64,000 nt of DNA, taken from NCBI RefSeq assembly GCF_000814005.1, contig NZ_JWLK01000010.1, forward strand, positions 62,001-126,000, read 5' to 3'. Below the pieces are notes generated by a model. It was not told the DNA's origin. It was given only the letters and a program-made list of their open reading frames with translations, and searched no databases. The DNA is from Ruegeria sp. ANG-S4. GTDB lineage: Bacteria; Pseudomonadota; Alphaproteobacteria; Rhodobacterales; Rhodobacteraceae. How positions within the stretch are numbered: position 1 is the first letter of the stretch; every line of letters begins with the position of its first letter. Position numbers and translations under genes: made by a program. Positions 8,755-32,339 of this stretch are shown piece by piece.

Positions 8755-8785
8755 TCACTGACAGCCGCGGGTCAATTGATCAGGC
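8749..8785. terminator. Inverted repeat between convergent dnaQ and secB
   Basis: GCCTGATCA (8749-8757) pairs with TGATCAGGC (8777-8785), a 9-bp stem with an internal 19-base loop that spans both stop codons. There is no U-tract, so it could be a bidirectional barrier or 3'-end stabiliser rather than a classical intrinsic terminator. Confidence 0.4.
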
Positions 8786-9280: not shown

Positions 9281-9334
9281 GGAACTACTCCAAAAATGAA
9301 TTTCGCCACTGCTTAGCAAGTTGGGCGTGGCACC

Positions 9335-9838: not shown

Positions 9839-9946
9839 TTGCGCTATCCTATACCATATCCCGAACTGTGGACTTGCCACCCGGTGTCACCTACATAAGT
9901 GCAAGAGGCCGGGTATACAAAGTTCCGGTTCTGAAAAGAGGACGAA

Positions 9947-12236: not shown

Positions 12237-12359
12237 TAGTTAAGTTGATCCAGAAATAGAAATTTTTGGAAACGACAACACGCGCGCTTTGCAATTTAAC
12301 CAATCAAAGGCAATTCGACTCGTTTCTGGAAAGCTGAATTGCAGGTGGGGGCGCAGTTA

Positions 12360-13525: not shown

Positions 13526-14827
13526 TCAGGCCCGGACAATGTTTTCCCCGCCGTCCCGAAATTTTCCGCGCGTATCAATCAAAAGCGGGGCGTTCTCTTT
13601 GATCATGCCGTAGTCAAACGAACTGTGATCGGTCAACAGAAGCACCGCGTCTTGTTCAGAAAGTACCTGTGGTGTGAGATCGACCGACGACAAATCGAAC
13701 TTGTGCTCGCGCATCGTTGGAAAAACGGGCACATTAGGGTCGGAGTAAGACAGATCAGCGCCCCATTCGCGCAACAGCTCCATCACAAGGACCGACGGGC
13801 TTTCCCGGACATCATCTATGTCCCTTTTGTATGAGATACCAAGTGTAAGAACTTTCGCGCCCTTAAGCGATTTTCCGGCCTCATTGAGTGCGCGGATCGT
13901 CTTGTCGACCACAAACTGAGGCATTTGATTGTTAATCTCACCAGCCAGTTCAATGAATCGGGTGTGAAGGCCGTATTCGCGTGCCTTCCAGGTGAGGTAG
14001 AACGGGTCAATTGGTATGCAATGTCCGCCGATACCCGGCCCCGGGTAATAAGGCGTAAACCCAAACGGCTTCGTCGCGGCGGCCTCAATGATCTCAAAAA
14101 TGTCCAAGTTCATTGCGTCGGCAACGATTTTCATTTCGTTGGCAAGACCGATATTGATGGATCGGTGAATGTTTTCGAGCAGCTTTACAAGCTCGGCCGC
14201 TTGCGTCGAACTGACTGGCACAACCTTGTCAATAAAGGACCCGTACAACTTTTGTCCTTCAGCCAAACACGCAGGCGTATGACCGCCCACAATCTTGGGG
14301 ATTGTTTTGGTGTTGAAATGCCTGTTGCCTGGGTCTTCCCGCTCAGGCGAGTAAACGAGGTAGAAGTCCTTACCCACTTCAAGTCCGGACTTCTCTACGT
14401 AAGGAAGCAACACTTCTTTTGTGGTTCCTGGCCAAGAAGTGCTTTCGAGACTCAGCAACTGACCCTTGCGCAGGTACGGAGCGATCGACTCCATTGTCGC
14501 AGTCACAAAACTCAGGTCCGGTTCCCTTGATTTATCCAATGGCGTCGGTACGCAGATAATCAAAGCATTACATTCCGCGGCGCGACTGAAATCAGTTGTT
14601 GCCTGAAAGCCGGCCGAAAGCATGTTGGAAATACTGTCATCTGAGATATGTTTGATCGGACTGATGCCGCCGTTGAGTTGTTCAATTCGTTCGGGCAGAA
14701 CGTCAAAACCCAGAACTGGGTGACCGCACTCTGAGATGCGCAATGCGAGCGGAACGCCGACGTATCCGAGGCCGAGCACTCCGACTTTTCCGGAGCTTGT
14801 AGATACCGTGACTGAAGGGCTGGGCAT
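13526..14827 (-). CDS. UDP-N-acetylhexosamine 6-dehydrogenase (WbpA/TviB type)
   Basis: Enzymes of this type oxidise C6 of a UDP-HexNAc (or UDP-glucose) twice with NAD to make the uronic acid for surface polysaccharide. The 433-residue protein has the NAD motif G-x-G-x-x-G (G-L-G-Y-V-G at 19-24), the conserved S-T-S-W-P-G-T-T strand, catalytic cysteine in G-G-H-C-I-P-I-D-P near 270 and [15 protein letters not shown] near 350. The P-G-P-G-I-G-G-H-C and P-x-P-T-P-L features favour the UDP-HexNAc branch (WbpA-like) over UDP-glucose dehydrogenase, but the exact substrate is inferred. Confidence 0.85.
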
Positions 14828-15071
14828 GATTCACGATCCGTTGAAGAATTTTTCTGCTTCTAGCGTGTTGTGCGCGGAATGCAAACTGAGTGTGTAAGCT
14901 TGATTTTGGCATATGGGCGAGTTGGCTTGAACAAATTCGGCCTCGGGAAATTCAGTGTAAGTTTCCAGGTATTTTGACCACTCAATCTGCGACGCCATTT
15001 CCAAGGCGGCTGGTCTGACAAAAGCGGGTCAAATCCATTAGATCAGTTTTGTTCCGAACCGTTGGACCGCG

Positions 15072-15683
15072 CTACTTTTCCATCAAGAACCAAGTAATGT
15101 CGTCTTGCGGCGCCCAGTTATCGCGTTTGTAAATAAATCCGTAGTCAACAAGCTTAAGCCCAAACTGATCCATCAACTCCCCCGCAAAATCTCTTTTGAA
15201 AAGCCTGTCGGTACTTCCCCGATAGCTGATCGTTGTAGGCGTTGGGTTGTAATACTCTGCAACCAGCACATATCGCCGAGAGACTTCGAAAAGATTGGTG
15301 TAAACGTCATGTAGCCTGTCGGGGTTAATGTGAATCAACACTCCAGCGGTGAAGGTCAAATCCACAGCGTCGTGTTCGATTGGATCGAGAATCGTCCCTC
15401 GTGTAATTTTAGCGATCTCAAGTTCCGAGGCTCGCTTCGCGGCTTCTTCGTTGATCTCAATCCCGCTAAGCTTCAACGAGGGCATGAGCTTGTTCAATGC
15501 CAGCAAGTTGCCGCCGATATTGCATCCCAATTCGAGAACAGACGTGATCCCGTGCGCGCTGGAAAGCATCTTTGACCACATGGCGACTTTAGGCATCAAC
15601 AGCCGTTCATGCGTATTGCGTTCAATATACTGATTGCCGAACTTTCCGGCCCAAAACTCTTCCTGTTCAGTGGAAAAACTCAA
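15072..15683 (-). CDS. Pseudaminic-acid-biosynthesis-associated SAM methylase
   Basis: This is a class I SAM-dependent methyltransferase resembling the methylases that accompany pseudaminic or related nonulosonate loci. I chose the TTG at 15683 because an AGGAG site lies seven bases upstream and the protein then opens at the family-typical S-F-S-T-E-Q-E-E-F-W-A-G block, giving 203 residues. The SAM loop E-L-G-C-N-I-G-G-N is near 46-54 and a motif II-like D-L-T-F-T-A-G-V-L-I-H-I-N follows. Upstream in-frame codons are cysteine- and arginine-rich and unlikely to be translated. Context (pseB and pseC nearby) supports a sugar substrate. Confidence 0.7.
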   Translation of the reverse strand: MSFSTEQEEFWAGKFGNQYIERNTHERLLMPKVAMWSKMLSSAHGITSVLELGCNIGGNLLALNKLMPSLKLSGIEINEEAAKRASELEIAKITRGTILDPIEHDAVDLTFTAGVLIHINPDRLHDVYTNLFEVSRRYVLVAEYYNPTPTTISYRGSTDRLFKRDFAGELMDQFGLKLVDYGFIYKRDNWAPQDDITWFLMEK

Positions 15684-15772
15684 TTTTGATCTCCTGGTGG
15701 ATGAACATCCACTCGCTTCACTGCCCGCAAACCGTTTGCGATGCAAGTTTCCGGAATGTGGATGGCAGTTTT

Positions 15773-17341
15773 TCAACGTTTCAATTCAGCAAATGCCTCT
15801 CGTACGCGAGCGATGTTCTCGGTCTGACGCTCTTTTGCGGTGGGCCTCTGGCTGCCACCAGATTGCCTGAGCGCGATGTCGGTAACCACGTTTACGAGTG
15901 TTTCGAAATCTGTCGCCACACTGATTTCATCTGCCGCCACTAACTCCTCAAAAACTGCAGCGCCCTTTTTGGACCAAACGGCTGCGTCTGCTCCATAATC
16001 AAGCGCTTCGTAAATGATTGTAGAAGCATTACAGAGAATTAAGTCAATTTCCGGAAGCACCTGGTGCAGCGGTTTGGCGCTTTCGGCCAACACACTTTCC
16101 TTCGTGACGCCAAACTCGCGCGCAACTTCATCAAGGTAATTGTGCCCCATAGGATGCAAACGGAACCTCCAGTCCACAATGTCCCTGGTCGCAAGGTACG
16201 CATCTTTTACATGCGGCTGGATCATTGGATCGCCACCATATTGAAAACCAATCAGCACCTGTGGCCGTTGGTGCCCACTTTCGAAGGAAATGGTTTCGCC
16301 CGCGAGCGAGTAGTCCAATGCCGTTTTCGGGTTTCCACCAACAATGGCACGATGCCTGCCACTGCCATTTGAGTTAATGTAGGCAGCGCTGCGCTTATCC
16401 CAGCACCAGAAGACGTCCGGAAGTAATTCGTACCCGTGTTTGGGCGCCTTGTTCCAATTGGAAACAAGCGGGTGATGTTGATGCATGCCCCCATGCTGAA
16501 TGTCGATCACGGGAATCCCAAGTCGTTTTCCCGCCGCACAGATATAGCTGACACCTGTGTAGCTGCTTAGAAAAACTGCCTTGGGCTTAATATGACTTAA
16601 GACGGCGAACCAATACATCAGGCGTTGTGAACAGTTTTTAACTCTCACCAATACCTCATATTCATTCAGTCGCAGTTGCGCATAGCGATCAGGTATTGAA
16701 GCATTTACTCGTGAAACGGTCTTCAGAATCTTGTTTCGCACCCAAAGCTCGGCCAGCGTTGAAGGCCTTAGAAAGTTAATCAGGTCCCGGCTTGGCATGT
16801 AGGGAAGAACTTCGGTCGGCAGCAAAAACTCTGACCCGAAGTCGCTTGGATTGCCGTCTACCAGCGTCAGCTGCCGGTGCTCCTCCGGGCAAAGATACCT
16901 TATCCCATCCGTCAAAGGTTCATGCGCCTTGCCATGCGCAACCTGACGATACTGCGCACTGCGCGTCAGAAACAAGTGATCTGCGGTTGGTAAATTTTGG
17001 ATATGACCGCTCAAATTGCGCTCTGCTGCACGGCTATTCAGGTCATCAAAATACTTTACGCCAGTCGAACGGTCTCTAAGCGCCAACTGATAGAGCTCGA
17101 TTTTTCGTTGGCGGGTAACCTCGGCTAACGCTAGTTCATTGCGCGGCGCCTGAAACTTCCGCTCCGCATTGATCATAAAGCGCATCAATGGCCAGTAATT
17201 ATAGTGGAAAAATCGGCAGCTTCCCGGAACAACTTGGTTCTCGATTTCGGTCAGCAACTCGATAAACGCCCGTCCTTCGGGCAAACTTGTTTCCTGCTTG
17301 AGTGGCATGAGGGCCTCGTCGCGAGAGTGCCCGTGCGACAT
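15773..17341 (-). CDS. Large surface-polysaccharide transferase-like protein (GT-B-like)
   Basis: I do not recognise an exact family. From the ATG at 17341 the protein has 522 residues with no signal peptide. The C-terminal half looks like a GT-B or CDP-glycerol-transferase-type fold: V-I-D-I-Q-H-G-G-M-H-Q-H-H, then R-L-H-P-M-G-H, then L-C-N-A-S-T-I-I-Y-E-A-L-D-Y-G, a sequence of donor-binding elements found in capsule polymer transferases. It is transcribed with the methylase and divergently from pseB. A TTG at 17401 or an ATG at 17308 are alternative starts. Role in assembling the island's glycan is inferred. Confidence 0.55.
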   Translation of the reverse strand: MSHGHSRDEALMPLKQETSLPEGRAFIELLTEIENQVVPGSCRFFHYNYWPLMRFMINAERKFQAPRNELALAEVTRQRKIELYQLALRDRSTGVKYFDDLNSRAAERNLSGHIQNLPTADHLFLTRSAQYRQVAHGKAHEPLTDGIRYLCPEEHRQLTLVDGNPSDFGSEFLLPTEVLPYMPSRDLINFLRPSTLAELWVRNKILKTVSRVNASIPDRYAQLRLNEYEVLVRVKNCSQRLMYWFAVLSHIKPKAVFLSSYTGVSYICAAGKRLGIPVIDIQHGGMHQHHPLVSNWNKAPKHGYELLPDVFWCWDKRSAAYINSNGSGRHRAIVGGNPKTALDYSLAGETISFESGHQRPQVLIGFQYGGDPMIQPHVKDAYLATRDIVDWRFRLHPMGHNYLDEVAREFGVTKESVLAESAKPLHQVLPEIDLILCNASTIIYEALDYGADAAVWSKKGAAVFEELVAADEISVATDFETLVNVVTDIALRQSGGSQRPTAKERQTENIARVREAFAELKR

Positions 17342-17500
17342 TTTGTGCCGCCCACACTCAGATATCCTTTCCTTGGTATGACGAATATGTGAGTTATTCA
17401 AGCACTCAAGGTACGCTTTTCGTCGGGCAGTAAACCCTTTGCGGCCAGAGGTTTTCTTCGGTATTCAAATGCAACAAAAAACTTGAAGCGAGCTGATTTC

Positions 17501-18511
17501 ATGAGTTCCAAATTCGACAACGCCACCGTCTTGGTGACCGGAGGGACCGGTTCTTTCGGCAACGCTTTCGTCCCGATGACTCTTGCGACGACCAATGTAA
17601 AAAAGGTTATCGTCTTTTCCCGCGATGAAATGAAGCAATGGGAAATGGCGAAGAACTTTCAGCATGATAATCGTGTCAGGTTCTTTATCGGAGATGTTCG
17701 GGACCGAGAGCGTCTTTACCGCGCGTTCGATGGGGTGGATTATGTTGTCCATGCCGCTGCAACAAAGATTGTTCCAACGGCCGAATACAACCCATTCGAA
17801 TGCATCAAGACCAACGTAAATGGTGCAATGAACGTTATCGATGCCGCGATCGACAAACGCGTGAAGGGCGTGGTTGCGCTTTCAACGGACAAAGCGTCCA
17901 GCCCAATTAACCTGTATGGTGCCTCAAAGCTGGCGTCTGATAAGCTCTTTGTCGCAGGTAATTCTTACGCTGGTTCGCACGACACACACTTTTCCGTGGT
18001 GAGGTATGGGAATGTCATGGGCTCAAGAGGTTCAGTGATACCGTTCTTCATGCAAAAGCAAGATGTTCCGAGCTTGCCTATAACCGACCAGCGAATGACC
18101 CGCTTCATGATCACGCTTGAAGAAGGTGTCGAACTCGTTTGGCACGCATTCAATGATATGGTTGGCGGCGAAATCTACGTCAAAAAAATCCCCTCAATGA
18201 AAGTGACGGACATTGCCCGGGCTATTTCTCCGAATGCCACGCATGAGATTATCGGTATTCGTCCCGGGGAAAAGATTCACGAGCAAATGGTCGGCATCGA
18301 AGATGCGCCGTTCACTTATGAATACGAAGAATACTTCAAAATCCTTCCTGCGATTCACAATTGGTCGACGTCGAAGGAGCGCATAAAAGATGGGGTCAGA
18401 GTAGCAGATGACTTTGTGTATTCGAGTGACAAAAATGACGATTGGATGACAGAAGACGCTCTGTTGGCTTGGATCGAAAAGAACCGTTCCAGTTTGGAAG
18501 GGCACAAATGA
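17501..18511 (+). CDS. pseB: UDP-GlcNAc 4,6-dehydratase (5-inverting) PseB
   Basis: PseB converts UDP-GlcNAc to the 4-keto-6-deoxy-L-arabino sugar, the first step to pseudaminic acid. The 336-residue SDR protein starts at ATG 17501 (M-S-S-K-F-D-N), has the NADP motif T-G-G-T-G-S-F-G at 13-20, the T-D-K triplet at 129-131 and the Y139-x-x-x-K143 catalytic pair in N-L-Y-G-A-S-K. The extended A-A-A-T-K-I-V-P-T-A-E-Y-N-P segment is typical of PseB and FlaA1. It overlaps pseC by 4 bp, so the two enzymes are made together. Confidence 0.92.
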   Translation: MSSKFDNATVLVTGGTGSFGNAFVPMTLATTNVKKVIVFSRDEMKQWEMAKNFQHDNRVRFFIGDVRDRERLYRAFDGVDYVVHAAATKIVPTAEYNPFECIKTNVNGAMNVIDAAIDKRVKGVVALSTDKASSPINLYGASKLASDKLFVAGNSYAGSHDTHFSVVRYGNVMGSRGSVIPFFMQKQDVPSLPITDQRMTRFMITLEEGVELVWHAFNDMVGGEIYVKKIPSMKVTDIARAISPNATHEIIGIRPGEKIHEQMVGIEDAPFTYEYEEYFKILPAIHNWSTSKERIKDGVRVADDFVYSSDKNDDWMTEDALLAWIEKNRSSLEGHK

Positions 18512-19692
18512 TACCATACGGCCGCCAGGATATAAATGAAGACGATATCGACGCCGTAGTCGCGGTTTTGAAATCAGACTTCCTTACGCAAGGCCCTGCG
18601 GTTCCCCGGTTTGAAGACGCCTTGGCATCAAAGGTTCGGGCATCACACGCAGTTGCAGTTAACTCCGCCACGTCAGCGCTACACGTTGCGTTGGCGGCTC
18701 TTGATGTCGGTCCCGGAGACTTGATCTGGACGTCGCCGATAACGTTTGTTGCATCCGCGAATTGCGCGCTTTATTGCGGCGCGGATGTAGATTTTGTCGA
18801 CATAGATCCGCGCACTTACAACATGTGCGCCAACGCCCTCGAGCAAAAACTCCACAAAGCTGCTTTGAATGGAAAACTGCCCAAAGCCATTATTCCGGTC
18901 CATATGAGTGGCCAGTCGCCCGACATGCACCGCATATCTGAATTGGTGGCCGACTATGGCATCCATGTGGTTGAAGATGCGAGTCACGCGATCGGCGCAG
19001 AATACAAAGGAACTCCGGTGGGTGATTGCGCACATTCGGCAATCACTGTTTTCAGCTTCCATCCGGTAAAAATCATTACGTCGGCGGAAGGCGGCATGGC
19101 AACCACCAATAATCCTCGCCTCGCTGAACGCATGGCGATGCTTCGCAGCCACGGCGTTACGCGCGATCCAAGTCTAATGCGGGGGCAGCCGGATGGACCT
19201 TGGTATTATCAGCAGATTGATCTCGGCTGGAATTACAGAATGACAGACGTCCAGGCAGCGTTGGGCTTGAGTCAGCTCAGCAGGCTGGACGAGTTTGTGC
19301 AAGCCAGAAATGAGCATGCTGATCGATATGACGAACTGCTTGCAGATATTCCAATCGGTCTCCCTAACAGATTGCCCGAGTCTCGGTCTGCATTTCATCT
19401 GTATGTTGTAAGGCTGCAAACAGACAACGCTATGGCGCATAGATCTGTTTTTGAAGACATGCGCAATGCCGGGATCGGGGTGAACCTTCACTATATCCCT
19501 GTGCACGTTCAGCCCTATTACCGGGATCTAGGTTTTTCGTGGGGCGATTTTCCGCAAGCTGAGACGTATTACCAACAAGCGATGACTTTGCCTCTGTTTC
19601 CTGGTCTCACGTCGCAGGAACAGGAAAAAGTAGTTGAAACGCTGAAAAATTCGATCTTGCGGCGAAACGCGACCCCGGCGGCAACAGCTTGA
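18508..19692 (+). CDS. pseC: UDP-4-amino-4,6-dideoxy-N-acetyl-L-altrosamine transaminase PseC
   Basis: PseC is the PLP-dependent aminotransferase acting on the PseB product. Starting at ATG 18508, inside the pseB stop (ATGA), the protein has 394 residues and opens M-I-P-Y-G-R-Q-D-I-N. The DegT/DnrJ/EryC1 fold is shown by E-D-A-S-H-A-I-G-A (155-163) and the PLP lysine K188 in F-S-F-H-P-V-K-I-I-T. The usual later enzymes of the pathway (PseG, PseH, PseI, PseF) are not in this window, so the product may feed genes elsewhere or be used as an amino sugar itself. Confidence 0.92.
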   Translation: MIPYGRQDINEDDIDAVVAVLKSDFLTQGPAVPRFEDALASKVRASHAVAVNSATSALHVALAALDVGPGDLIWTSPITFVASANCALYCGADVDFVDIDPRTYNMCANALEQKLHKAALNGKLPKAIIPVHMSGQSPDMHRISELVADYGIHVVEDASHAIGAEYKGTPVGDCAHSAITVFSFHPVKIITSAEGGMATTNNPRLAERMAMLRSHGVTRDPSLMRGQPDGPWYYQQIDLGWNYRMTDVQAALGLSQLSRLDEFVQARNEHADRYDELLADIPIGLPNRLPESRSAFHLYVVRLQTDNAMAHRSVFEDMRNAGIGVNLHYIPVHVQPYYRDLGFSWGDFPQAETYYQQAMTLPLFPGLTSQEQEKVVETLKNSILRRNATPAATA

Positions 19693-19769: not shown

Positions 19770-19928
19770 TCAGCTGGCGAATTGTTGCGTTTTCAACCTT
19801 ATTGAGATTTCCAAGGACTTGGGTGCCAATGCCCCAAATTTACCGATGACTGACCCGAGTAAGATCACAAAAGCAATAAACCAGGAAATAGCTAAGCCTT
19901 GAGAGACCAAGTTGCCAAGGTTACTCAA
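19770..19928 (-). CDS. Possible small membrane protein translationally coupled to the MBOAT gene
   Basis: A 52-codon frame begins with TTG at 19928, overlapping the MBOAT stop as TTGA, and ends with TGA at 19770. It encodes one hydrophobic helix (about residues 12-34, rich in I, F, V, L) followed by a basic tail with K, R and K and no tyrosine. The positive tail predicts a cytoplasmic C-terminus. It is too short for standard ORF filters. Coupling to an MBOAT makes it a plausible partner subunit, but no family is recognised and the TTG start lowers confidence. Confidence 0.42.
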   Translation of the reverse strand: MSNLGNLVSQGLAISWFIAFVILLGSVIGKFGALAPKSLEISIRLKTQQFAS

Positions 19929-21079
19929 GAAAGCCCGAGTAGCTTAGCGGTCATCAAAACGGCTGTCTCAAAATCTTCCAGGTTCGCGAATGTCTGAATC
20001 CACGAAATGAACAGCAATGTCAGAATGCCGCCGAGCGCTTTCGTCGCCAACCTCGCCACCGCGCTTTCTTTGAACAACGGAAAGATCTTTTTGTTCGCAC
20101 CATAGTGAACCATCGCAACGCCTAATCCGTTTCCAAGGCCCCAAATAAAATAGTTCAAATCAAATGCGTGCCACATGCCGAACAGAATGAACGCGACGAT
20201 TGTCGCGGCATAGGTTGCCCAGGGGCGTTTGAGCCAGAGGACGATTGGGAAAAAAATGAACTGGTTTATCGCGTTACCCATCGAAATATGATAGCGCTTC
20301 CAAAACTCAGCAATGTTCGAGACCAACAAGGGCCTGTCGAAATTCTCGAAGACCTTAAGCCCGAAAATTCGGCTCAATCCAATCGCGACCGAGGAAAACC
20401 CTTCGAAGTTGATGTACGTGTAAAGGAAGCTCGCAATAATCAGCCCGAGAGCCTGAGATTGCGAGAACACCGCGATGTCCTCATAGGCGCGGCCAAACCA
20501 TTGATTTCGAATAGGGTCTAGGATTTCACCACCAATGAACATTACCAGAAAGAGGCCGACAGCAATGCGGTAGACACCATAAATTGCTTGCTTAAAGTCA
20601 AAGCGGTTGGCGAAGTTGTTTTGCGCAAATGTTGATATTTTCTCGACGGGACCCACGGTAAACAGCGGGAAAAAGAAAATTAGAAGAAACGCGTCCAACG
20701 CCTTCAGGTGTTGGCGGCCTCCGTACGCGATCATGACGAGGCCTAGAGATTTTACTGTCGCGAAGGCAACGCCAAATGACAAAAAGAATGACTGCTCGCT
20801 GAACACACGCAAACCAACCAATGGGCAAAGCGCCAACGCAATAAATAGCCAGAAGCTCCAGATGTTTCGGAACTGAAAAAACACGCGCTGTGCCAGCAGC
20901 GGCGTGATCGCTAGGCAAATACAGAAGAAGAAACCTCCGAGCGAGTACAGCAAGACCAGCGCAGCAGAAATTGAAAGCAAGACGATTTGCCGAGCCTGGG
21001 GTCGATCTGCCGGAACGGACCAGAACAATGCCAGTGCAACTAAGCTGCCGAAGAAAAAAAGCCAAATATTCGCCAGCAT
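19925..21079 (-). CDS. MBOAT-family O-acyltransferase (AlgI/DltB-like)
   Basis: Membrane-bound O-acyltransferases move an acyl group from a cytoplasmic thioester across the membrane to an acceptor. The 384-residue protein is hydrophobic throughout, with about ten helices. It has the MBOAT W-K-R-Y-H-I-S-M block (H264 region) and the invariant catalytic histidine H304 in F-I-L-F-G-M-W-H-A-F-D-L-N-Y. It ends K-L-L-G-L-S, with no tyrosine-containing C-terminal shuttle hexapeptide of its own. It lies downstream of an acyl carrier protein, an AMP ligase and an SGNH protein on the same strand: the classes DltC, DltA and DltD. Confidence 0.85.
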   Translation of the reverse strand: MLANIWLFFFGSLVALALFWSVPADRPQARQIVLLSISAALVLLYSLGGFFFCICLAITPLLAQRVFFQFRNIWSFWLFIALALCPLVGLRVFSEQSFFLSFGVAFATVKSLGLVMIAYGGRQHLKALDAFLLIFFFPLFTVGPVEKISTFAQNNFANRFDFKQAIYGVYRIAVGLFLVMFIGGEILDPIRNQWFGRAYEDIAVFSQSQALGLIIASFLYTYINFEGFSSVAIGLSRIFGLKVFENFDRPLLVSNIAEFWKRYHISMGNAINQFIFFPIVLWLKRPWATYAATIVAFILFGMWHAFDLNYFIWGLGNGLGVAMVHYGANKKIFPLFKESAVARLATKALGGILTLLFISWIQTFANLEDFETAVLMTAKLLGLS

Positions 21080-21119
21080 TAATAATCACTTCTCCGGAAC
21101 GATTTCATAAACGACCTTG

Positions 21120-21944
21120 TCATCTTTCGCACCCTTGGATCGGAATAGACTCGAAGTTCTCTAGGGTCGCCCATGTGAAATTGTCGTTCTCGGCAGCCAA
21201 TACATCCAACTGTCTAAGCGTTGTTTCCACGAGGTCACCGCCGTCACCCCAGTCCGTGTCACGGTCGTCGAATACTCCGATAATTTGTCCCTTGTAGCGA
21301 TCGAAGGAACCAAATGCGCGTTCCCAGTTTTCTTCGTTTGGGTCGGAAAACCTGGCTTGGCCGACCATTCTGGGTGGACGGCCCGGTTCGCTGTCGAGAT
21401 CGGGAAGGCTGCGTTCTGTATTTGCCCATTTTTTCAAGATTTCGAAAAACAGTTTCACATCCGCTTCCCAGCCCCGTTTTCGCAGCACACTGCGCAACAA
21501 CTCGGGATCTGAATTCGCGCCCATAGACCGCGCACGCAAGCTAAAAAGCGGGGAAACTTGAACGATTATCGCGCAGACTTTTGATTTTGTTCGCCGATCT
21601 CCAGGCACCAGAGCCCTGGAAACCAGACGCAGATCATCTGGATCATAGCTGTTGACAATAATGCGCTGTGTATTCGGTAACTCCGCGATCCATTCCGGCA
21701 CGCTGCTTTGGAACAAGCTGTCGCCCACTATGACTGCAGAAAATTCTGTCTTTTGATCCGGCAGGAACAGAGTTTGGGCCTGATACCGTTCATCCTGCGA
21801 GAATCGCAGGTTCAAGAATTGCCAAAATGCACGCTGTTCCGGTAGTTTACCAAAAACCAGGACGACGAAAGCGAATGTAAATAAAAACACAGCAAGCACG
21901 ACTGCGTACTTGAGGAGCGTGGGTGGCTTGATCCATCCAAACAT
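21120..21944 (-). CDS. Membrane-anchored SGNH-like protein lacking histidine (DltD-like position)
   Basis: From ATG 21944 the protein has 274 residues with one N-terminal membrane helix (about 11-32) and an extracytoplasmic domain. V-I-V-G-D-S-L-F at 72-79 matches SGNH block I with Ser76 as nucleophile candidate. The protein contains no histidine, so the catalytic D-x-x-H of block V is absent; the two other frames past the stop do not supply one either. It may be catalytically altered or serve as a serine acyl acceptor or scaffold. It lies 10 bp after the AMP ligase and 40 bp before the MBOAT. An in-frame start 48 bases upstream overlaps the ligase. Confidence 0.6.
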   Translation of the reverse strand: MFGWIKPPTLLKYAVVLAVFLFTFAFVVLVFGKLPEQRAFWQFLNLRFSQDERYQAQTLFLPDQKTEFSAVIVGDSLFQSSVPEWIAELPNTQRIIVNSYDPDDLRLVSRALVPGDRRTKSKVCAIIVQVSPLFSLRARSMGANSDPELLRSVLRKRGWEADVKLFFEILKKWANTERSLPDLDSEPGRPPRMVGQARFSDPNEENWERAFGSFDRYKGQIIGVFDDRDTDWGDGGDLVETTLRQLDVLAAENDNFTWATLENFESIPIQGCER

Positions 21945-21954
21945 AAGCGGAAAA

Positions 21955-23469
21955 TTAACCCTCTGCTTTGGATGAGCCCTTGGTCGCTTCAATCAGACTG
22001 GCCAGTCTTCGGCGATCAACTTTACCAGAGCCTGTTCGCGGAATTTCCGGAAGGCTGACGTATCGGGCCGGAATATGATTGACCGGAATGAACCGACGCA
22101 AGGTCCGAGAGATTTCACCGCTGTCCATTTCGCTTTCGTTTTTCCACGAAATATACGCCACTGGGACGCGGCCTTCAAAATCGTTCTCCTCGCTGGTGCA
22201 GAACACGTCGTGGATTTCATCCAAGTTCATGAGTGCGTCAGCGATGATCTGAGCAGAGACCTTCAAGCCCGATCGTTTGAAAACCGAATCCGAACGTCCC
22301 GAAAGGAAGACAAAACCTTCGTCGTCAACATATCCCATATCACCATTCAGAAAACCAACCGAGCTAAGAACTTTCTGATTGGCTTTTGTGTTTCTAAAGT
22401 ATCCTTCGAAACCGATCTGACCGGAAACGTAGATATTTCCCACCTCACCGACATCGCAGGTCGTGCCGTCGTCGCGACGTATGGTGATCTCAAACCCGTT
22501 AATGGGAAATCCGACGCTGCCGGCCTTATTACTGAGATATTGCGGAGGAAGTTCGCAAAAACGCCCGCCCAATTCAGCCATTCCATAAACCACGTGAAGC
22601 TCCAAATTGGAGAAGTTGCCTGCCAGCTTTTCGATAACTTCCCGCCGCAAATGGTCTCCCGATGACATTGCCCAGCGCAATTTTGGCAAGCGGTGTTCAC
22701 CTGCCATGGCGATGAACTGCATGTGAAAAGGTGAACCACCAAAGGCCGAAATGTCCCTGTCGTTCAATATGTCGATCAGGTCCTTGATCATCAGTGTGCG
22801 TTCAACGCCAAAGAAAGCAGCGCCGCTTAACAGCGTGACGAGAAAATGAGAAATGGAAGAGATAAAACGGAACGGTGTCGCAATCAGTAGCCTGTCGCTG
22901 TCTCTCAACTGCAGGCGCTGCGCGGTCGAAAGAGCATTCAAGTTCAACGCCCTGTGCGTCAGGGGAACGCCCTTGGGTAAGCCGGTTGTGCCTGAGGTGA
23001 AGATCAACCCCGCCAGGTCAGGCAATTCACTGTCATCAACAAATGGCAGGTCCCTGAAGCAAGATTGCAAATCACCGGCCTCAGCATTTGGATCAAATGA
23101 AGAAGGCAATCTCTCCAGCGCTTTGAATTCGGGGGTCGTTGTTTCGTCTGCTCCGATGATTTTCGATACGCTTGTCATCTGAACCACGGAGGCCGCATGT
23201 TCGTCCGAGATGTTCTTTTCGACGCAAATTGGTTTGGCACCCAAGACCCAAGCCGCAAGTAATTCGGACCAAAAAGCCAAACCCCTGTCACACATCAAGA
23301 CTACGAAGTCGTCTGGTCTAAGGCCGCTCTGCAAGAATAGATTGGCCTGCAGCCGGACGTTTTCGAACAAAGAAGATCGGTCCAGGCAAACAGTGTCGTC
23401 ACCAAGTACGGGCTTGTTTGGGCGCCGAAGCAGGCTACCCAGAACGAGGCGGGATGTATTGTCTTTCAA
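21955..23469 (-). CDS. AMP-forming acyl/amino-acid ligase (DltA-like role)
   Basis: The 504-residue protein is a class I adenylate-forming enzyme, which activates a carboxylic acid with ATP and loads it onto a thiol. The A3 phosphate loop I-F-T-S-G-T-T-G-L-P-K-G is at 156-167, V-Y-G-M-A-E-L-G follows (A5), then N-G-D-M-G-Y (A7), S-G-R-S-D (A8) and the catalytic A10 lysine K483 in P-R-T-G-S-G-K-V-D-R-R. The gene lies 25 bp after an acyl carrier protein gene, so the thiol acceptor is probably that carrier's phosphopantetheine. Substrate (fatty, hydroxy or amino acid) cannot be read from the sequence. Confidence 0.85.
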   Translation of the reverse strand: MKDNTSRLVLGSLLRRPNKPVLGDDTVCLDRSSLFENVRLQANLFLQSGLRPDDFVVLMCDRGLAFWSELLAAWVLGAKPICVEKNISDEHAASVVQMTSVSKIIGADETTTPEFKALERLPSSFDPNAEAGDLQSCFRDLPFVDDSELPDLAGLIFTSGTTGLPKGVPLTHRALNLNALSTAQRLQLRDSDRLLIATPFRFISSISHFLVTLLSGAAFFGVERTLMIKDLIDILNDRDISAFGGSPFHMQFIAMAGEHRLPKLRWAMSSGDHLRREVIEKLAGNFSNLELHVVYGMAELGGRFCELPPQYLSNKAGSVGFPINGFEITIRRDDGTTCDVGEVGNIYVSGQIGFEGYFRNTKANQKVLSSVGFLNGDMGYVDDEGFVFLSGRSDSVFKRSGLKVSAQIIADALMNLDEIHDVFCTSEENDFEGRVPVAYISWKNESEMDSGEISRTLRRFIPVNHIPARYVSLPEIPRTGSGKVDRRRLASLIEATKGSSKAEG

Positions 23470-23494
23470 GTGTGACGTCCTTGGCCATTCGGCG

Positions 23495-23734
23495 CTAGTC
23501 TTTCAATCGATTTACGGTTTCCGTGATTTTCGAGATGCTGTCCACATCATCAAGCGAAACATCAAGTGGCGAGATCGACAAGCCAAATTGGCTCTCCAGC
23601 ATCATGAGGAGTCGGAGCGAATTGAGGCTATCCAACAACCCGGCACTGAAAATTGCCGCGTCTGTTTCAAGACTGCTTGAATCAAGCCCAAATTCTGAGC
23701 TCAGGATTGATCGAACACTTTCTTCAACCGCCAT
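23495..23734 (-). CDS. Acyl carrier protein (DltC-like role)
   Basis: This 79-residue protein is a phosphopantetheine-dependent carrier. Ser36 in A-G-L-L-D-S-L-N-S-L is the attachment site, within the family pattern D-S-L. The start at ATG 23734 is favoured by a GGAGG site just upstream; GTG and ATG codons 12-18 bases further up are alternatives. It is the first gene of the leftward cassette (carrier, ligase, SGNH, MBOAT, small membrane protein) and diverges from the aldehyde dehydrogenase gene across 149 bp. It is separate from the housekeeping acpP, which normally sits with fab genes. Confidence 0.85.
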   Translation of the reverse strand: MAVEESVRSILSSEFGLDSSSLETDAAIFSAGLLDSLNSLRLLMMLESQFGLSISPLDVSLDDVDSISKITETVNRLKD

Positions 23735-23883
23735 GCTTTCCTCCATTACCACAATTGCCCTTAGTTGGAATAAGCCATGGTTGCAATCTGCTTTCCAGTT
23801 GAATCGAAGTATGCTTAGGGTTAGCCGGAGATATGACGTATTTTAGGCTTGGGCCTACAAAATTTGGTGTTTCAGGGGACGAA

Positions 23884-25404
23884 ATGATTGAGCTCTCGAA
23901 CGAATTGACTAAGCGCCGAGCACGAGCGTTTTCCGCAGGGGAAGGTGCTTTGGCCTGGTACCGGCAGCGCTGCGCTGCGACGATGGGCGATGTCGACATG
24001 TCAACCGGAGAAGGCGTGAAGTGCTATGATCCTTCGACGGGCATGGAAACTTGGACCATTCCCGAAAGTTCGGACCACCTGATCAATACATTCATCGAGC
24101 GCGCTCGCCGAGCACAACCGAAATGGATGAAGACAGAACCTGCTGAACGAGCAAAGATCCTTTGGGCCTGCGCCGATGCCCTTGAGGCGGAGCAAAGTGA
24201 ACTTGCAGAGATTCTTGCGCTTGAAACGGGCAAGTCACTTACACATGAATGCAAAGGTGAAGTGACGTTGCCGGCGTCAATTTTCAGATATTTCTCTGGC
24301 CTTGTTCACGAAATAAAGGGCCGGTCGATACAAGCCGGTCCCAAGCTGATGGGCTATACGACATACCACCCATGGGGCGTTGTCGCCGGCGTTGTGCCTT
24401 GGAATGTGCCACTGATGTTCATGGCCTACAAGATCGCTGCTCCGCTTGCAGCTGGAAACACCGTGTTGATCAAGGCCCCCGAGCAGGCGACGGCATCGTT
24501 GGCATACGCATTTCGTTTGATCGCCCACCTGTTGCCAGATGGGGCCGTTGAGATTGTAAGTGGGTCAGGTTCGGGTGCGGGAAACAAACTGATTTCAAAC
24601 CCGGGCATAGACAAAGTGAGCTTTACAGGCTCGGTTGAAACCGGCCGGGCAATATACCGACAAGCTGCAAAAGACTTTCGCTCTGTTACACTGGAACTCG
24701 GGGGCAAGAACCCCATGATCATTTTGGAAGATTGCGATCTGGACAAAGCCGTCAACGGCGTTATCGGCTCCATGCGGTTCACACGGGCTGGTCAAAGTTG
24801 CACGGCTTCCAGTCGAATTTACGTGCCGCGGAAACTGATGGACAAATACCGCGAAGCGCTTGGCTTGGCATTGAATGACCTCAAGATCGGACACGCGCTG
24901 GATCCGGATACGCATTCCGGCCCGGTGGTTTCGAAGGCACAACAGACTCGCATACAAGACTATCTGACGTCTGCGGCGTCAGATGGGCTGGATGTTAAGT
25001 CGTATGGGAACGTGCTTGATGAAGAGCTGTTTACAAAAGGCTATTTCGTAAAACCGCATCTGATCTTTGACCCGGAACATGAACACCCTGTTTCTCAGGA
25101 AGAAATTTTTGGTCCCGTGGCCACTCTCACTGGATACGATAGCCTGGACAACGCAATTGAGTTCGCGAACAGCACCGATTTCGGCTTATCCGCGAGCGTA
25201 TGGGGTCGGGATATCGATGCGTGTTTGACTTGTGCTGATGCGTTTCGCGCGGGTATCGTGCAAATCAATCAAAATGCAATTATGCTGCCCGGTTTTTCAT
25301 ATGGCGGAATAGGAATTTCAGGTGTGGGCAAAGAGTCTTCGCTGGAGGCAATGCGCGAAACCTACATGTTTGAAAAAACCAATATCGTGAATTTTGCAGG
25401 CTAG
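23884..25404 (+). CDS. NAD(P)-dependent aldehyde dehydrogenase
   Basis: The protein oxidises an aldehyde to its acid. From ATG 23884 (AGGGGACGA upstream) it has 506 residues of the succinate-semialdehyde/betaine-aldehyde type: P-W-N at 172-174, F-T-G-S-V-E-T-G near 247-254, catalytic E271 in L-E-L-G-G-K-N-P and C306 in G-Q-S-C-T-A-S-S-R. An ATG at 23833 would add 17 atypical residues. It opens the rightward half of the acylation cassette and its stop lies two bases before the next start. It may make the acid that the neighbouring AMP ligase activates; this is inference. Confidence 0.88.
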   Translation: MIELSNELTKRRARAFSAGEGALAWYRQRCAATMGDVDMSTGEGVKCYDPSTGMETWTIPESSDHLINTFIERARRAQPKWMKTEPAERAKILWACADALEAEQSELAEILALETGKSLTHECKGEVTLPASIFRYFSGLVHEIKGRSIQAGPKLMGYTTYHPWGVVAGVVPWNVPLMFMAYKIAAPLAAGNTVLIKAPEQATASLAYAFRLIAHLLPDGAVEIVSGSGSGAGNKLISNPGIDKVSFTGSVETGRAIYRQAAKDFRSVTLELGGKNPMIILEDCDLDKAVNGVIGSMRFTRAGQSCTASSRIYVPRKLMDKYREALGLALNDLKIGHALDPDTHSGPVVSKAQQTRIQDYLTSAASDGLDVKSYGNVLDEELFTKGYFVKPHLIFDPEHEHPVSQEEIFGPVATLTGYDSLDNAIEFANSTDFGLSASVWGRDIDACLTCADAFRAGIVQINQNAIMLPGFSYGGIGISGVGKESSLEAMRETYMFEKTNIVNFAG

Positions 25405-25405
25405 C

Positions 25406-26362
25406 ATGATGCGCGTCTTTTTCATCACATTGGCGCTCATCGTTTGTGGGGTTGCGGTGGTGGTGTGGATAGGCGCACAGCCCGAGCGACGATATGAAAC
25501 TTCTGCCTGCCAATACAGGATGATTCACGAATACAAACCAGAACATGAAATCGGGCTTGTTACGGTTGGGGGGTCTCGAATGAGGGTTTCAACGAATGCG
25601 CAGCACTTCGACGAGATCCTGGCTGAAATTCGACCGGGCTCTTTGCCTGTTCACAACCTGGCGCACAGCTACTTTTCGATTGGAAAGGAATACGTTCTTA
25701 TCGAAGAGTTTCTTGAAAACCATAATCCAAAAGCGATTGTTGTTATGATCCGGCGGCGGACAGGAGATTATGGAACTGTCCATCGGGATTTTGTCGACAT
25801 TGCGCGCTTGAAAGACATTCCACTTGTCGTACACGCCTTGTGGCCAGAAGATAGGCTCAACGCGATCCGTGCAGCGAGGGACGTGGTTTTAAAGCATCTG
25901 GTTCCACTGCGTCGTGTTCAGGCTCCTCATCCTGAAATGACAATTCGAAACTGTGATCGATTGGACTTCCGACTGGATGCCCTTGCCTTGGACAACGGTG
26001 CAAAAAAATTCGAAACCCTTGACGGTGTGACTGTTGATTGGGAATTGAGCGATCCTCGCCAAGAGGGCCTCAGACGTTGGATTGCTGCATTCAAAGAGCT
26101 TTCGAACCGGACCGGCACGGATATTATCTTTTTGTCTATAACGGCTACGTGGGAACCGCTTCCCGAGAAAGGCTTGGAACTCGAGTTTGAAGCTGAAACG
26201 GGTATGCCATTGATCGTTCTTGACAGGGAACTGCACAGGAAGCTTGTTGAAGACGGAAAGCGTGACGAATCCCACATGAACCAGGCGGGGAGAGAGATTT
26301 TCCTGCCTTGGCTTGTGTCGCGCATTGAAGAAAAATGCAGCCGCAGCGACGGGTGCCTCTGA
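25406..26362 (+). CDS. Membrane-anchored SGNH-hydrolase-like protein (DltD-like)
   Basis: The 318-residue protein has one N-terminal membrane helix (about 3-22) and an extracytoplasmic domain. V-T-V-G-G-S-R-M at 52-59 gives a block I serine (S57), and D287-E-S-H290-M-N-Q-A-G gives a complete block V Asp/His pair, so the SGNH triad is intact here, unlike in the paralogue-like gene at 21120. DltD and alginate O-acetylation proteins have this anchored SGNH layout. ATG at 25406 or 25409 are both possible. Its stop shares one base with the next small gene (TGATG). Confidence 0.72.
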   Translation: MMRVFFITLALIVCGVAVVVWIGAQPERRYETSACQYRMIHEYKPEHEIGLVTVGGSRMRVSTNAQHFDEILAEIRPGSLPVHNLAHSYFSIGKEYVLIEEFLENHNPKAIVVMIRRRTGDYGTVHRDFVDIARLKDIPLVVHALWPEDRLNAIRAARDVVLKHLVPLRRVQAPHPEMTIRNCDRLDFRLDALALDNGAKKFETLDGVTVDWELSDPRQEGLRRWIAAFKELSNRTGTDIIFLSITATWEPLPEKGLELEFEAETGMPLIVLDRELHRKLVEDGKRDESHMNQAGREIFLPWLVSRIEEKCSRSDGCL

Positions 26363-26517
26363 TGGAGCAAAAAGCGACTCATAGGAACACCGCTTGGCAA
26401 GTCCTCGCTCGGGGGACTCGCCTATTGGTTGTCTGTTTTATAATCAGTGTGGTACTTTTGTATCTGGCCTTTTCTGCCGAGTATACAGCGGTCCGGGCTG
26501 TTTATGAGGCATATTGA
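26362..26517 (+). CDS. DltX-like transmembrane microprotein with C-terminal tyrosine motif
   Basis: The frame encodes 51 residues: a basic N-terminus (K4, H7, R8, R17, R20), one membrane helix (about 21-38) and a short tail ending A-V-Y-E-A-Y, with Tyr48 and Tyr51. Positive-inside topology puts the tail outside the cell. In Dlt-type pathways a membrane microprotein (DltX) carries an outside C-terminal hexapeptide whose tyrosine accepts the acyl group from the MBOAT and passes it to a serine of DltD. The gene overlaps the SGNH gene by one base and the next frame begins within its end, so it is tightly coupled. Function is inferred. Confidence 0.62.
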   Translation: MEQKATHRNTAWQVLARGTRLLVVCFIISVVLLYLAFSAEYTAVRAVYEAY

Positions 26518-26528
26518 AGGGGGCAGCC

Positions 26529-27983
26529 GTGGCCGTTGATTGCGACGACAAAACGCATAGAGAACTCAGACAACTGCGCTACCAAATCAAAAAGCTGAAG
26601 TATCAGAACGCCCGGTACCAACAGCAGATTGACGCTGCAACTTGTGCGTCAGACGATGCCAAACAGCAATTGGACGACGCGCGACAGCTGCTTGATCTTC
26701 ATTACGTGGTCAAAAATAAACCACTCACTTTGGCCTACTTTCCCCTATTGACGCTCCTGCTCCCGGTCACGTTGCCGATGACCATTTACAGGTATCTGAT
26801 CAAGCGAAAACAACGTCGGAAAGAAAAGCGCGCCAAGAAAAACAAGTCGAGCGCAAAACAGCGAAATCTGGAAAAGCAATCGGGAAAAGCCCATTCGATC
26901 GTCTTGAATGCGTTTTGGAAACTCAAAGAAGATCGAGAGCAGGAGGCGTTTGAACTTCTCGAGACCCGAAGGTCAGAAATTCCCGATGAAATAATCCCCT
27001 TGTTTCGAAGCGCCACGGCGTCGGATGATCAGACTTGGCTCGATAATTTCAACTTATTCTTGTCCAGTTTGGACAAACCGATTGCCGTTTTGGAAGCCTC
27101 CGAACAGCCGCGTTTCAACAGAATCCGTTTTTCCCCAGTGAAAGCGGTGACTGATGGACCAAAAGTTTCAGTCATCATGCCGACTTTCAATTGTGAGGAT
27201 ACGGTACGCTACGCGGTGGATTCTATATTAAACCAGAGCTGGCAGAATTTGGAACTCATAGCAGTGGATGATTGCAGTCAAGATTCCACGTATGAAATTC
27301 TGTGCCAGATTGCCGAGACAGATAGTCGGCTGGTTGTCCTGCGTCAAACAGTAAACGGTGGCCCCTATGTTGCGAAAAACAGGGCATTGGCCACCGCAAT
27401 TGGTGAGTACATAACCGGTCATGATGCGGATGACATCGCCTTGCCGGATAGGATCGCAGTTCAGATGCAACCAATTCTGGATGATCCTGATTGTCAGGCG
27501 AGTATCGGGTATATGACGCGGCTGGACACTGATGCCCGATTCTCATGGCCGACCAAAGTCGGTAGCTACAGTTTCAATGGAGCTTGTAGGATTGCCTCGA
27601 TTTCGCTGCTGATCCAAAAAGAAGTTATGGAATTCGATCTGGGGTATTGGGACACAGTGCGTTTTGGCGCGGACAGTGAACTCATCGCGCGGGCGGGTGA
27701 ATTACTGGGAGAGCGGCTGGTTAAGTTGGAAACGCTTACCATGCTTTGTTTGGATGATGCGTCGGGACTTACAGGGCACGTGCAACACGGGATCAGTGTG
27801 GAGACCGGAATGTCGCCGTCTCGCATCGAATACCGCGACGCCTGGAGGGCTTGGCACCAGAATACTATGCCAGAAGACCGGTTTTTGCCGTTTCCGCATC
27901 ATGGAGCAGATAGATTTTTTGACCAGCCAGAGAATATGAAGGTTTCGGACGACGTAATTAAGTCTTTGAAGGAATACACCTAA
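26529..27983 (+). CDS. Family 2 glycosyltransferase with N-terminal coiled coil
   Basis: I chose the GTG at 26529, preceded by GAAGGGGG, giving 484 residues; a TTG at 26514 overlapping the previous stop is an alternative. Residues 8-56 are a charged coiled coil, 65-90 are hydrophobic (membrane association), 92-120 are lysine/arginine-rich, and a GT2 (GT-A fold) domain starts near 213 with V-S-V-I-M-P-T-F-N, V-D-D-C-S near 246-250 and the metal-binding D-A-D-D near 303. It is the last gene of the rightward acylation operon and may build or extend the acceptor glycan. Confidence 0.8.
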   Translation: MAVDCDDKTHRELRQLRYQIKKLKYQNARYQQQIDAATCASDDAKQQLDDARQLLDLHYVVKNKPLTLAYFPLLTLLLPVTLPMTIYRYLIKRKQRRKEKRAKKNKSSAKQRNLEKQSGKAHSIVLNAFWKLKEDREQEAFELLETRRSEIPDEIIPLFRSATASDDQTWLDNFNLFLSSLDKPIAVLEASEQPRFNRIRFSPVKAVTDGPKVSVIMPTFNCEDTVRYAVDSILNQSWQNLELIAVDDCSQDSTYEILCQIAETDSRLVVLRQTVNGGPYVAKNRALATAIGEYITGHDADDIALPDRIAVQMQPILDDPDCQASIGYMTRLDTDARFSWPTKVGSYSFNGACRIASISLLIQKEVMEFDLGYWDTVRFGADSELIARAGELLGERLVKLETLTMLCLDDASGLTGHVQHGISVETGMSPSRIEYRDAWRAWHQNTMPEDRFLPFPHHGADRFFDQPENMKVSDDVIKSLKEYT

Positions 27984-31097: not shown

Positions 31098-32339
31098 ATG
31101 ACGAAAATTGCCAAGATCACCCTTCTGTTTGTCGTGTTCGTGGACCTCATTGGACAGGGGCTGGTCTTTCCGATCATCAACTCGTTGATCATGGAAACAA
31201 AATCCGGGTTCCTGCCTGACAGCACGTCCATGGGAACAAGGCACCTGTACTATGGTTTGGTGATCGGGTGCTTTTTTCTGTCTTGGTTTCTGGGTGTTGT
31301 GTACGTGGCCAAGGTCTCGGACTCGATTGGACGCAAGAACGCGCTTTTGGTTTGCCTCGGCGGGGCCCTGGCAGGCTATGCGCTGACAATTGCGGCGCTC
31401 TACCTCAACAGTCTGTTGCTTTTGATCATTGGTCGGTCGATCACCGGGTTTACGGCAGGGAACCAACCCATCGCGCAGGCTGCGATGATTGACGGCAGCA
31501 CCGACGCTGCGGACCGGGACCGCAATATGGGCTATATCATCACCGGCGTCAGTTTCGGTCTGGTCGGCGGCCCGATAATAGGCGCGGTTCTTTCGGATGC
31601 GAACCTTTTGGGCAGCTTTGCCACATTGAAAACACCATTCTACGGTGCCTTTGTCCTGGTGTTGATCGCGATCTTTCTGGTGCTTTTCTTCTTCAAGGAT
31701 TTGCGCACCGAGCGAACCCGTTTCGTGTTCCGCCCAAGAGATATCACCGACAGTCTGATTGCTGTGCGCGAGCATCCACTGGTTCTGAAAATCCTACCGG
31801 TCTACGCCTTGTTCATGATTGCGAACGTCACCTTTTATGTGTTCGTCGATAACTTCCTGACCAGTGCCTGGGGCTATGGCGTGATCGGCGGCAGCATGGC
31901 GATGGTTGTCATCGGCTTTGCGCTGGCGTTCTCAAGCACGTTTCTTGTCAAGCCAGCGCAAGAAAGGTTCAGCAAGCACCAGATCATCTACACGTCTTTG
32001 GTCGTGATGGTGATTTGCGGTTTCGGATTTGCCTTCAGCCCAAGCGGCGTTCTGAGTTATGTGCCCGTGTTCTTTTTCTACTTCTTTTTTGGCGTGTCAT
32101 ACCCGACCTTGCTTGGGCTGTTTTCCTCGTCCGTCAGCGAGACAGATCAAGGGTGGGTCATGGGTGTGACGACTGCAGTGTTCTGCCTGGCGGGCGGGGT
32201 CATGTCGCTGATCGGCGGCGGGCTCATGAGCTTTGATATCCGCCTGCCGTATTACATCGTTATTGCCACCGCTCTGATGGGATTGGTCGGCATGCACCTG
32301 CGCTGGAAAGGCAAAGAGATCAAAGCCTTGTTAACCTGA
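31098..32339 (+). CDS. MFS transporter inserted between hslV and hslU
   Basis: The 413-residue protein has about 12 membrane helices and the MFS motif A variant D-S-I-G-R-K (loop 2-3) followed later by the motif C-like G-P-I-I-G-A-V-L-S, like tetracycline/multidrug proton antiporters. Substrate is unknown. It starts at ATG 31098, diverging from hslU across about 190 bp, and its 3' end overlaps the convergent hslV by 9 bp. It thus splits hslV from hslU and is read from the other strand. Confidence 0.85.

Follow-up and report, generated by a model that had tools for sequence, protein, structure and literature searches.

In Gram-positive bacteria, the Dlt system (DltXABCD) unites a ligase, a carrier protein, a short unfused membrane-bound O-acyltransferase (MBOAT), a separate one-helix microprotein with a tyrosine at the fourth position from its end (Tyr at -4; DltX) and a membrane-anchored SGNH protein, whereas Gram-negative acetylation systems of the PatA/PatB and AlgI types combine an MBOAT, an acyl-tyrosine shuttle and an SGNH transferase, with the shuttle fused to the MBOAT. 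According to a 2025 account of MBOAT-SGNH pathways (PMC12148441), the shuttle tyrosine sits in a C-terminal hexapeptide, which belongs to the separate DltX in Dlt and is part of the MBOAT itself in systems of the PatA type, PatA drawing on acetyl-coenzyme A (CoA) as the donor; pathways other than Dlt are described in the same account as being without both a carrier protein and a DltX-like microprotein. Here, a cassette found at 19770..27983 of a 64,000-nucleotide stretch of Ruegeria sp. ANG-S4 (contig NZ_JWLK01000010.1; the whole stretch is called "the window" below) is compared with these systems. The cassette is read, with a probability of roughly 0.68, as encoding a carrier-protein-fed transmembrane acylation relay, the working mode of which resembles that of Dlt (held with moderate to good confidence), while by the models tested the cassette is not a member of the Dlt family itself.

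A sequence-only reading of the window had listed an acyl carrier protein (ACP), an AMP-forming ligase, an MBOAT, a tyrosine-tailed microprotein, an aldehyde dehydrogenase (ALDH), a GT2 glycosyltransferase and two membrane-anchored SGNH proteins within 8 kb, in two divergent and tightly packed operons, and had called the acylation parts "exactly" the Dlt classes. The inventory holds, save that just one of the two SGNH proteins is complete, and the classes are indeed alike; the kinship, on the other hand, was overstated, as every matching Dlt model scores well below its cut-off (DltA, DltB and DltC models alike). The phosphopantetheine serine of the ACP lies in FSAGLLDSLNSL (LDSL), and the best of 13 NCBIfam models for this protein is that of DltC (PRK05087), at 43.9 of the 68 bits needed. 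The MBOAT, the sole match to Pfam MBOAT in the genome at a threshold of E 0.001, ends in MTAKLLGLS and carries no fused hexapeptide; its nearest solved chains are those of DltB (7e-19), and it reaches 104 of 375 bits with the DltB model TIGR04091. This model also picks up ordinary long-frame MBOATs, mostly with better E-values among the matches listed, and was discarded as proof of Dlt kinship, since it matches 125 of 385 genomes of the class at E 1e-5, again mostly long-frame proteins among the matches listed. The microprotein shows one hydrophobic helix (by hydropathy only) and the C-terminus AVYEAY, with a tyrosine at -4, an aromatic residue at -1 and an alanine at -6. A tyrosine at -4 combined with a hydrophobic last residue was found in one of 13 small hydrophobic open reading frames (ORFs) of the window, i.e., the microprotein, and in one of 195 such ORFs from 577 kb around 30 loci, so the tail match exceeds chance. 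Dlt differs in that its tails follow FxYxxF (FLYFGF in DltX, as given in PMC11035591), whereas in the window the tail and the SGNH protein are placed in a divergent operon, an ALDH and a GT2 are added, and no teichoic acid is expected.

The relay logic proposed earlier (ACP thioester, MBOAT, separate tyrosine tail, SGNH transfer) is well supported by a comparison of loci, in which MBOATs without the fused acyl-shuttle hexapeptide ("split") were set against those bearing it ("fused"), with one fixed set of rules for all counts. All loci were gathered by MBOAT similarity, the carrier and loading genes playing no part in selection; short frames were picked for their shortness, which partly builds in "no fused tail", and the tail pattern fixes the position of the tyrosine. 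A first genome scan with the window MBOAT alone returned no relative. Seventeen MBOATs with frames below approximately 430 aa were then taken from the matches listed in 148, 385 and 398 genomes, and ten were kept, those dropped being L075, L076 and L077 (fused tails, the latter two at a contig edge), L095, L097 and L098 (cut by a contig edge) and L091 (taken to be a broken fused gene, in which a 365-aa frame is followed by a 31-aa frame ending in FLYFQF). All ten complete unfused short MBOATs have a separate one-helix ORF with a tyrosine at -4, whereas the hexapeptide is fused in 19 of 20 long-frame controls, the exception (L101) being unfused, with a separate tail, an ACP and FkbH in its surroundings. 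A further three long-frame MBOATs without the fused tail (L121-L123) each have a separate tail and an ACP, two of them with FkbH as well, and a contig scan with a two-sequence MBOAT alignment added at least 14 loci (9 split, 5 fused); L034, L019 (344-aa frame) and L078 (fused, outside the 24 fused loci) were left out of the counts.

The resulting two sets, with 24 split loci (counting the window) and 24 fused loci, have fused tails in 0/24 and 24/24, respectively, and differ sharply in the DNA examined around each MBOAT. A separate tail ORF was found in every split locus, an ACP in 19 of 24 split and none of 24 fused loci, an AMP-ligase or FkbH in 21 of 24 versus one of 24 (L116, 5.5 kb away), and any of the three in 22 of 24 versus one of 24. 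The two split loci with none of them are L096 and L133, the latter a contig of 5.4 kb, and in the others all carrier and loading genes lie within 5.2 kb of the MBOAT. Seven split loci, including the window, had served to train the search models, so the 17 split loci outside the training set were also counted separately (ACP in 12, ligase or FkbH in 14, any in 15). The tail ORF lies within 3.5 kb of the MBOAT in 22 of the 24 split loci, L101 (4.4 kb) and the window being the exceptions; under loose tail rules, such an ORF is also seen in four of the 24 fused loci. The window itself, one of the training loci, has an unfused MBOAT, a separate tail ORF with Tyr at -4 and an ACP with a ligase. Earlier it had been proposed that the five classes should recur together, and MBOAT, tail, ligase, ACP and SGNH (with G-x-S and D-x-x-H) do indeed co-occur in nine other loci: L074 (same class), L088, L089, L090 (same family), L099, L125, L126, L129 (Novosphingobium) and L130. 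Split loci that could be named come from Phycisphaerales, Parabeggiatoa, Hydrogenedentota, Armatimonadetes, Novosphingobium, Proteobacteria, Syntrophaceae and Caulobacteraceae. In 23 of 24 fused loci, phenylalanine follows the shuttle tyrosine, whereas none of the 24 split ones has phenylalanine or tyrosine there (tryptophan once); this residue was nevertheless rejected as a signature of the donor, as the Gram-positive DltX tail FLYFGF has phenylalanine in that position (PMC11035591).

The same comparison bears on an unlikely alternative, namely that the MBOAT, the microprotein and the complete SGNH protein (SGNH2) work with acetyl- or acyl-CoA in the manner of PatA/AlgI, with the ligase, ACP and ALDH serving some other reaction, e.g., N-acylation of a pseudaminic-type sugar or of a lipid. 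Genes for PseB, PseC and a pseudaminic-acid-associated methylase are adjacent, PseI is encoded on a different contig of the genome, and a shared operon need not mean a shared reaction for the ligase, ACP and MBOAT; what argues against it is the absence of ACP from all 24 fused loci as opposed to its presence in 19 of the 24 split ones, as well as the lack of a fused tail on the window MBOAT and its position in the tree. In a tree of 102 MBOAT rows (six unclassified rows were left out), one clade with a Shimodaira-Hasegawa-like approximate likelihood ratio (SH-aLRT) support of 99 unites 75 of the 77 rows that carry the label "fused". Outside it fall all 25 split rows, the window among them, along with L100, which is annotated as dltB and was labelled "fused" through a chance pattern match, and the fused L023. 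AlgI and PatA are assigned to the fused clade by their fused hexapeptide, the tree containing no named AlgI or PatA row. The earlier proposal had treated grouping of the MBOAT with acetyl-CoA systems as a point that would tell against it, and the outcome is mixed: the window MBOAT stands outside the 75-row clade, but its joining the fused rows is not rejected by the approximately unbiased (AU) test (p 0.1; 44 rows, L090 and L023 being left out), a result that counts in favor of the CoA-fed alternative.

The fused exception L023/L152 (genome G122) carries the tail FIYAGF, yet its MBOAT groups with the split ones, and an adjoining ACP and an FkbH 1.3 kb away were found after its placement in the tree; carrier genes thus appear to go with the lineage of the MBOAT, tail fusion notwithstanding, and the locus may be intermediate between the split and fused designs. 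Because split MBOATs, separate tails and carrier or loading genes co-occur, and because split MBOATs lie outside the fused clade, a Dlt-like way of working is favored for the cassette.

What the ligase loads is a separate matter, to which a second alternative belongs: a genuine Dlt system transferred to a Gram-negative, whose ligase would load D-alanine for a surface glycan or lipopolysaccharide, as in the soft-rot enterobacteria for which dlt genes have been reported. PMC5541007 places dlt genes in a few Gram-negatives, and none were found in the part of PMC11279074 that was accessible. The protein classes are the same, the nearest solved MBOAT chains are DltB, the best ACP model is DltC, and L099, from another family group of the same phylum, looks like a real Dlt locus, its ligase bearing the aspartate discussed below and matching DltA chains at 4e-75. 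In adenylating enzymes that take amino acids, DltA included, an aspartate at the A4 position holds the alpha-amino group of the substrate. The window ligase, which keeps the motifs TSGTTGLPKG and GKVDRR, has isoleucine at this position (FRFISS); aspartate stands there in the LgrA amino-acid domains as well as in the L099 and L090 ligases. The difference is suggestive only: the ligases of L088, L124 and L125 likewise carry aspartate, for which reason this residue was rejected as a clean amino-acid marker. With the DltA model (TIGR01734) the ligase scores 105 of 560 bits, below its scores with acyl-CoA ligases, the exosortase-A-associated acyl ligase model TIGR03098 (its second-best NCBIfam match, 185 bits against a cut-off of 592) and MenE, which are its highest. 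Ranked over whole sequences in the PDB, the two-domain nonribosomal peptide synthetase (NRPS) LgrA comes first (148 bits), followed by MenE (122) and DltA (92); NRPS-type ligases are also encoded on contig 18 (locus L043). Being without the A4 aspartate and far below the DltA cut-off, the ligase probably does not load D-alanine, judging by its sequence, and the earlier suggestion of "a different acyl group" gains indirect support from the missing aspartate. To our knowledge, moreover, no aldehyde dehydrogenase takes part in D-alanylation, and the transplanted Dlt system is considered quite improbable.

The loading genes themselves vary among the split loci. FkbH proteins make glyceryl-ACP, and the FkbH of all six split loci tested (L033, L092, L093, L101, L121 and L123) exceeds the TIGR01686 cut-off of 147 bits (294-317 bits). 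These loci, together with the fused-tail L152, share with the window a carrier protein, an MBOAT outside the fused clade and a Tyr(-4) tail, and differ from it in that FkbH replaces the AMP-ligase. In L033 (genome G020, same genus), a short MBOAT, an ORF ending in FVYTGF*, an SGNH-like gene, FkbH (301 bits) and ACP stand in a row on one strand at 8550-13162, and a glyceryl or similar ester is predicted for it. Pyridoxal phosphate (PLP)-dependent decarboxylases of the ornithine/diaminopimelate/arginine family, similar to TIGR03099, are encoded in L088 (13907-15163) and L124 (13835-15079; 388 of 478 bits) near the ligase, ACP, tail and MBOAT genes; these two loci share with the window the AMP-ligase, ACP, tail, SGNH and MBOAT, whereas the decarboxylase takes the place of the ALDH and the ligase keeps the A4 aspartate, which suggests another made-to-measure acyl group. 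The L088 MBOAT is the best-scoring relative of the window MBOAT (30%) among the matches listed. In L131 (Syntrophaceae), the ORF nearest to the MBOAT looks spurious, and a good tail (FVYEEF) lies 3.0 kb away; at 13871-16255 of this locus, two tail ORFs share the ending KFVYEEF, and behind each of them lies an SGNH-like gene with D-A-D-H. L100 (NZ_AP025729.1, 5764-6951) is a solitary dltB on a plasmid of Ligilactobacillus, next to a gene for a bactofencin-type bacteriocin and with no adjoining dltA, and is perhaps linked to immunity.

In the window, an ALDH stands in place of the decarboxylase of L088 and L124; it has its catalytic cysteine in GQSCTASS and its glutamate in LELGGKNP and is similarly close to aminobutyraldehyde, betaine-aldehyde and phenylacetaldehyde dehydrogenases, with scores below the cut-off in each case. 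An ALDH gene was looked for around the MBOATs of the 23 other split loci and found in none, so the earlier inclusion of this enzyme in the pathway depends on a single locus, and its making the acid on the spot is a guess from gene order. Put together, the relay might run as follows: the ligase would use ATP to activate a small carboxylic acid, perhaps made locally by the ALDH, and load it onto the ACP; on the cytoplasmic side, the short MBOAT would accept the acyl group from this carrier and hand it to the tyrosine at -4 of the microprotein, by analogy with the Dlt and PatAB mechanism and in line with the architecture of the cassette; and SGNH2 would then take it over and esterify a periplasmic or lipid-linked glycan, presumably the island's own, which may contain pseudaminic-type sugars.

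The assignment of the last step to SGNH2 follows from a profile comparison of the two SGNH candidates with ten aligned SGNH proteins that accompany the MBOATs of other split loci; the only five columns invariant among these ten are the starting methionine, G-x-S and D-x-x-H. The match of SGNH2 covers residues 42-316 of 322 and takes in both G-G-S and D-E-S-H (hhalign E 2.8e-5, probability 74%; E 1.4e-4, probability 52% with a three-row set), whereas SGNH1 aligns over residues 69-171 of 274 alone, at GDSLF (E 0.005, probability 7%), gave no match in a second hhalign comparison (E 0.41) and ends in GCER* without a D-x-x-H block, none being seen by eye in the other minus-strand frames around its end either. 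As SGNH1 is without D-x-x-H and SGNH2 aligns through both blocks, only SGNH2 is a likely transferase, and the earlier count of two membrane-anchored SGNH proteins comes down to one complete one. SGNH1 has no Pfam family match, SGNH2 has sub-cut-off Pfam matches to unrelated families and none to a Pfam SGNH or NCBIfam model, and single-sequence AlphaFold models of both are poor (mean predicted local distance difference test scores of 40 and 38, respectively). Plasmid sequence searches with either protein gave no match, and SGNH2 found only itself in 385 genomes of the class.

The incomplete SGNH1 could also be taken for a remnant in a decaying or rearranged cassette, in which the microprotein motif has drifted off consensus and the system no longer works; the island, being low in GC, was probably acquired and is missing from this site in six relatives, which would suit such a history. 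This is distinctly doubtful, given that the family matches of the ACP, ligase, MBOAT and ALDH span most of their lengths, that the catalytic motifs of the ligase and ALDH are kept, and that a complete SGNH2 gene adjoins the microprotein gene with overlapping stop and start. The low-GC stretch extends over 12.2-28.1 kb of the window (GC 0.50-0.51 against 0.56 and 0.58 in the flanks). Five of six same-genus genomes show the island-free order Smr, 406-aa gene, the hydrolase at 28395, HslU, a major facilitator superfamily (MFS) transporter and HslV, and the sixth (G007) is organized differently for 19 kb past Smr, without relatives of the compared island genes. Low GC, absence at the site in these six genomes and the lack of any SGNH2 match but itself in the 385 class genomes together indicate that the cassette is a rare and probably acquired island. 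The MFS gene between HslU and HslV (31098-32339 of the window), conserved in position in five of the six genomes, encodes a Tet(A)-family-like protein scoring below all cut-offs.

The cassette genes form two divergent compact sets (Table 1). The minus set runs ACP, AMP-ligase, SGNH1, MBOAT and a doubtful 52-aa ORF, with intergenic gaps of approximately 10-40 bases if SGNH1 starts at ATG 21944; the plus set runs ALDH, SGNH2, microprotein and GT2, with the SGNH2 stop and the microprotein ATG sharing TGATG at 26360-26364 and the microprotein stop overlapping the TTG start of GT2. Promoter and terminator scans gave no excess over shuffled sequence. Neither the microprotein nor the 52-aa ORF matches a Pfam family; the 52-aa ORF shows no ribosome site by eye and no sign of being a gene, and it might stand for the extra helix of fused MBOATs or be spurious.

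Table 1. Genes of the acylation cassette and associated genes of the same island (positions in the window).
Feature	Position	Strand	Basis or remark
Pseudaminic-acid-associated methylase	15072..15776	-	TIGR03587 269 bits, cut-off 112; same island
PseB, UDP-GlcNAc 4,6-dehydratase	17483..18511	+	TIGR03589 515 bits, cut-off 408; same island
PseC, aminotransferase	18442..19692	+	TIGR03588 567 bits, cut-off 424; same island
Uncertain 52-aa one-helix ORF, TTG start, no Tyr	19770..19928	-	Overlaps MBOAT stop
MBOAT, 384 aa, no fused C-terminal hexapeptide	19925..21079	-	PF03062 9e-9
SGNH1, incomplete SGNH-like membrane protein, N-terminal helix, probable ATG start 21944	21120..21992	-	GDSLF block I, no D-x-x-H
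AMP-forming ligase, 504 aa	21955..23469	-	PF00501 5e-47
Acyl carrier protein, 85 aa from GTG (shorter from ATG 23746/23734)	23495..23752	-	Pfam PP-binding PF00550 4e-9
Aldehyde dehydrogenase, start possibly ATG 23884	23833..25404	+	PF00171 8e-134
SGNH2, membrane-anchored, complete (GGS block I, DESH block V), probable transferase partner	25394..26362	+	Profile alignment
Tyrosine-tailed membrane microprotein, ends AVYEAY*, start ATG 26335 or 26362	26335..26517	+	DltX-like by position
GT2 glycosyltransferase, long N-terminal extension	26514..27983	+	PF00535 5e-29

What speaks for the carrier-fed relay is seen at the level of sequence, in its parts, the split tail, the absence of the aspartate, the rule of co-occurrence and the island. 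Several points weigh against it: the window MBOAT sits on a long branch (2.63) with an unsure nearest partner, and the AU test result applies here as well; the top PDB match of the ligase being an NRPS leaves room for an amino acid substrate; and the ALDH association is known from the window only. The SGNH protein adjoining the MBOAT is the incomplete one, which would fit decay, and plain sequence searches found no relative of SGNH2 in the 385 class genomes or of either SGNH protein among plasmids and split loci. Finally, AVYEAY departs from FxYxxF at both ends, and the microprotein gene belongs to the opposite operon, at a distance of 5.2 kb from that of the MBOAT, while 22 of the 23 other split loci have a tail ORF within 3.5 kb.

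The wider group of carrier-fed MBOAT loci, those fed by FkbH included, outweighs the window cassette in importance. A literature search by titles and abstracts, mostly without subscription papers, found no carrier-fed MBOAT system besides Dlt, and the loci collected here show the pairing of a carrier with a microprotein in Gram-negatives, with several loading enzymes. A bolder view, put forward tentatively and at a little short of even odds, is that a broad and largely undescribed carrier-fed MBOAT family extends across Gram-negative phyla, in which the MBOAT lineage would fix the donor (a carrier rather than CoA) and exchangeable loaders (AMP-ligase, ligase plus PLP decarboxylase, FkbH, or ligase plus ALDH) would choose the acid, the window variant oxidizing an aldehyde for its own acid and dividing membrane entry and glycan transfer between two divergent operons. 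MBOAT lineage, together with the fused or separate state of the tail, offers a simple sequence predictor of the donor type, and the surface glycans of such bacteria may bear hydroxy-, amino- or other acyl esters that are invisible to acetyl-focused assays.

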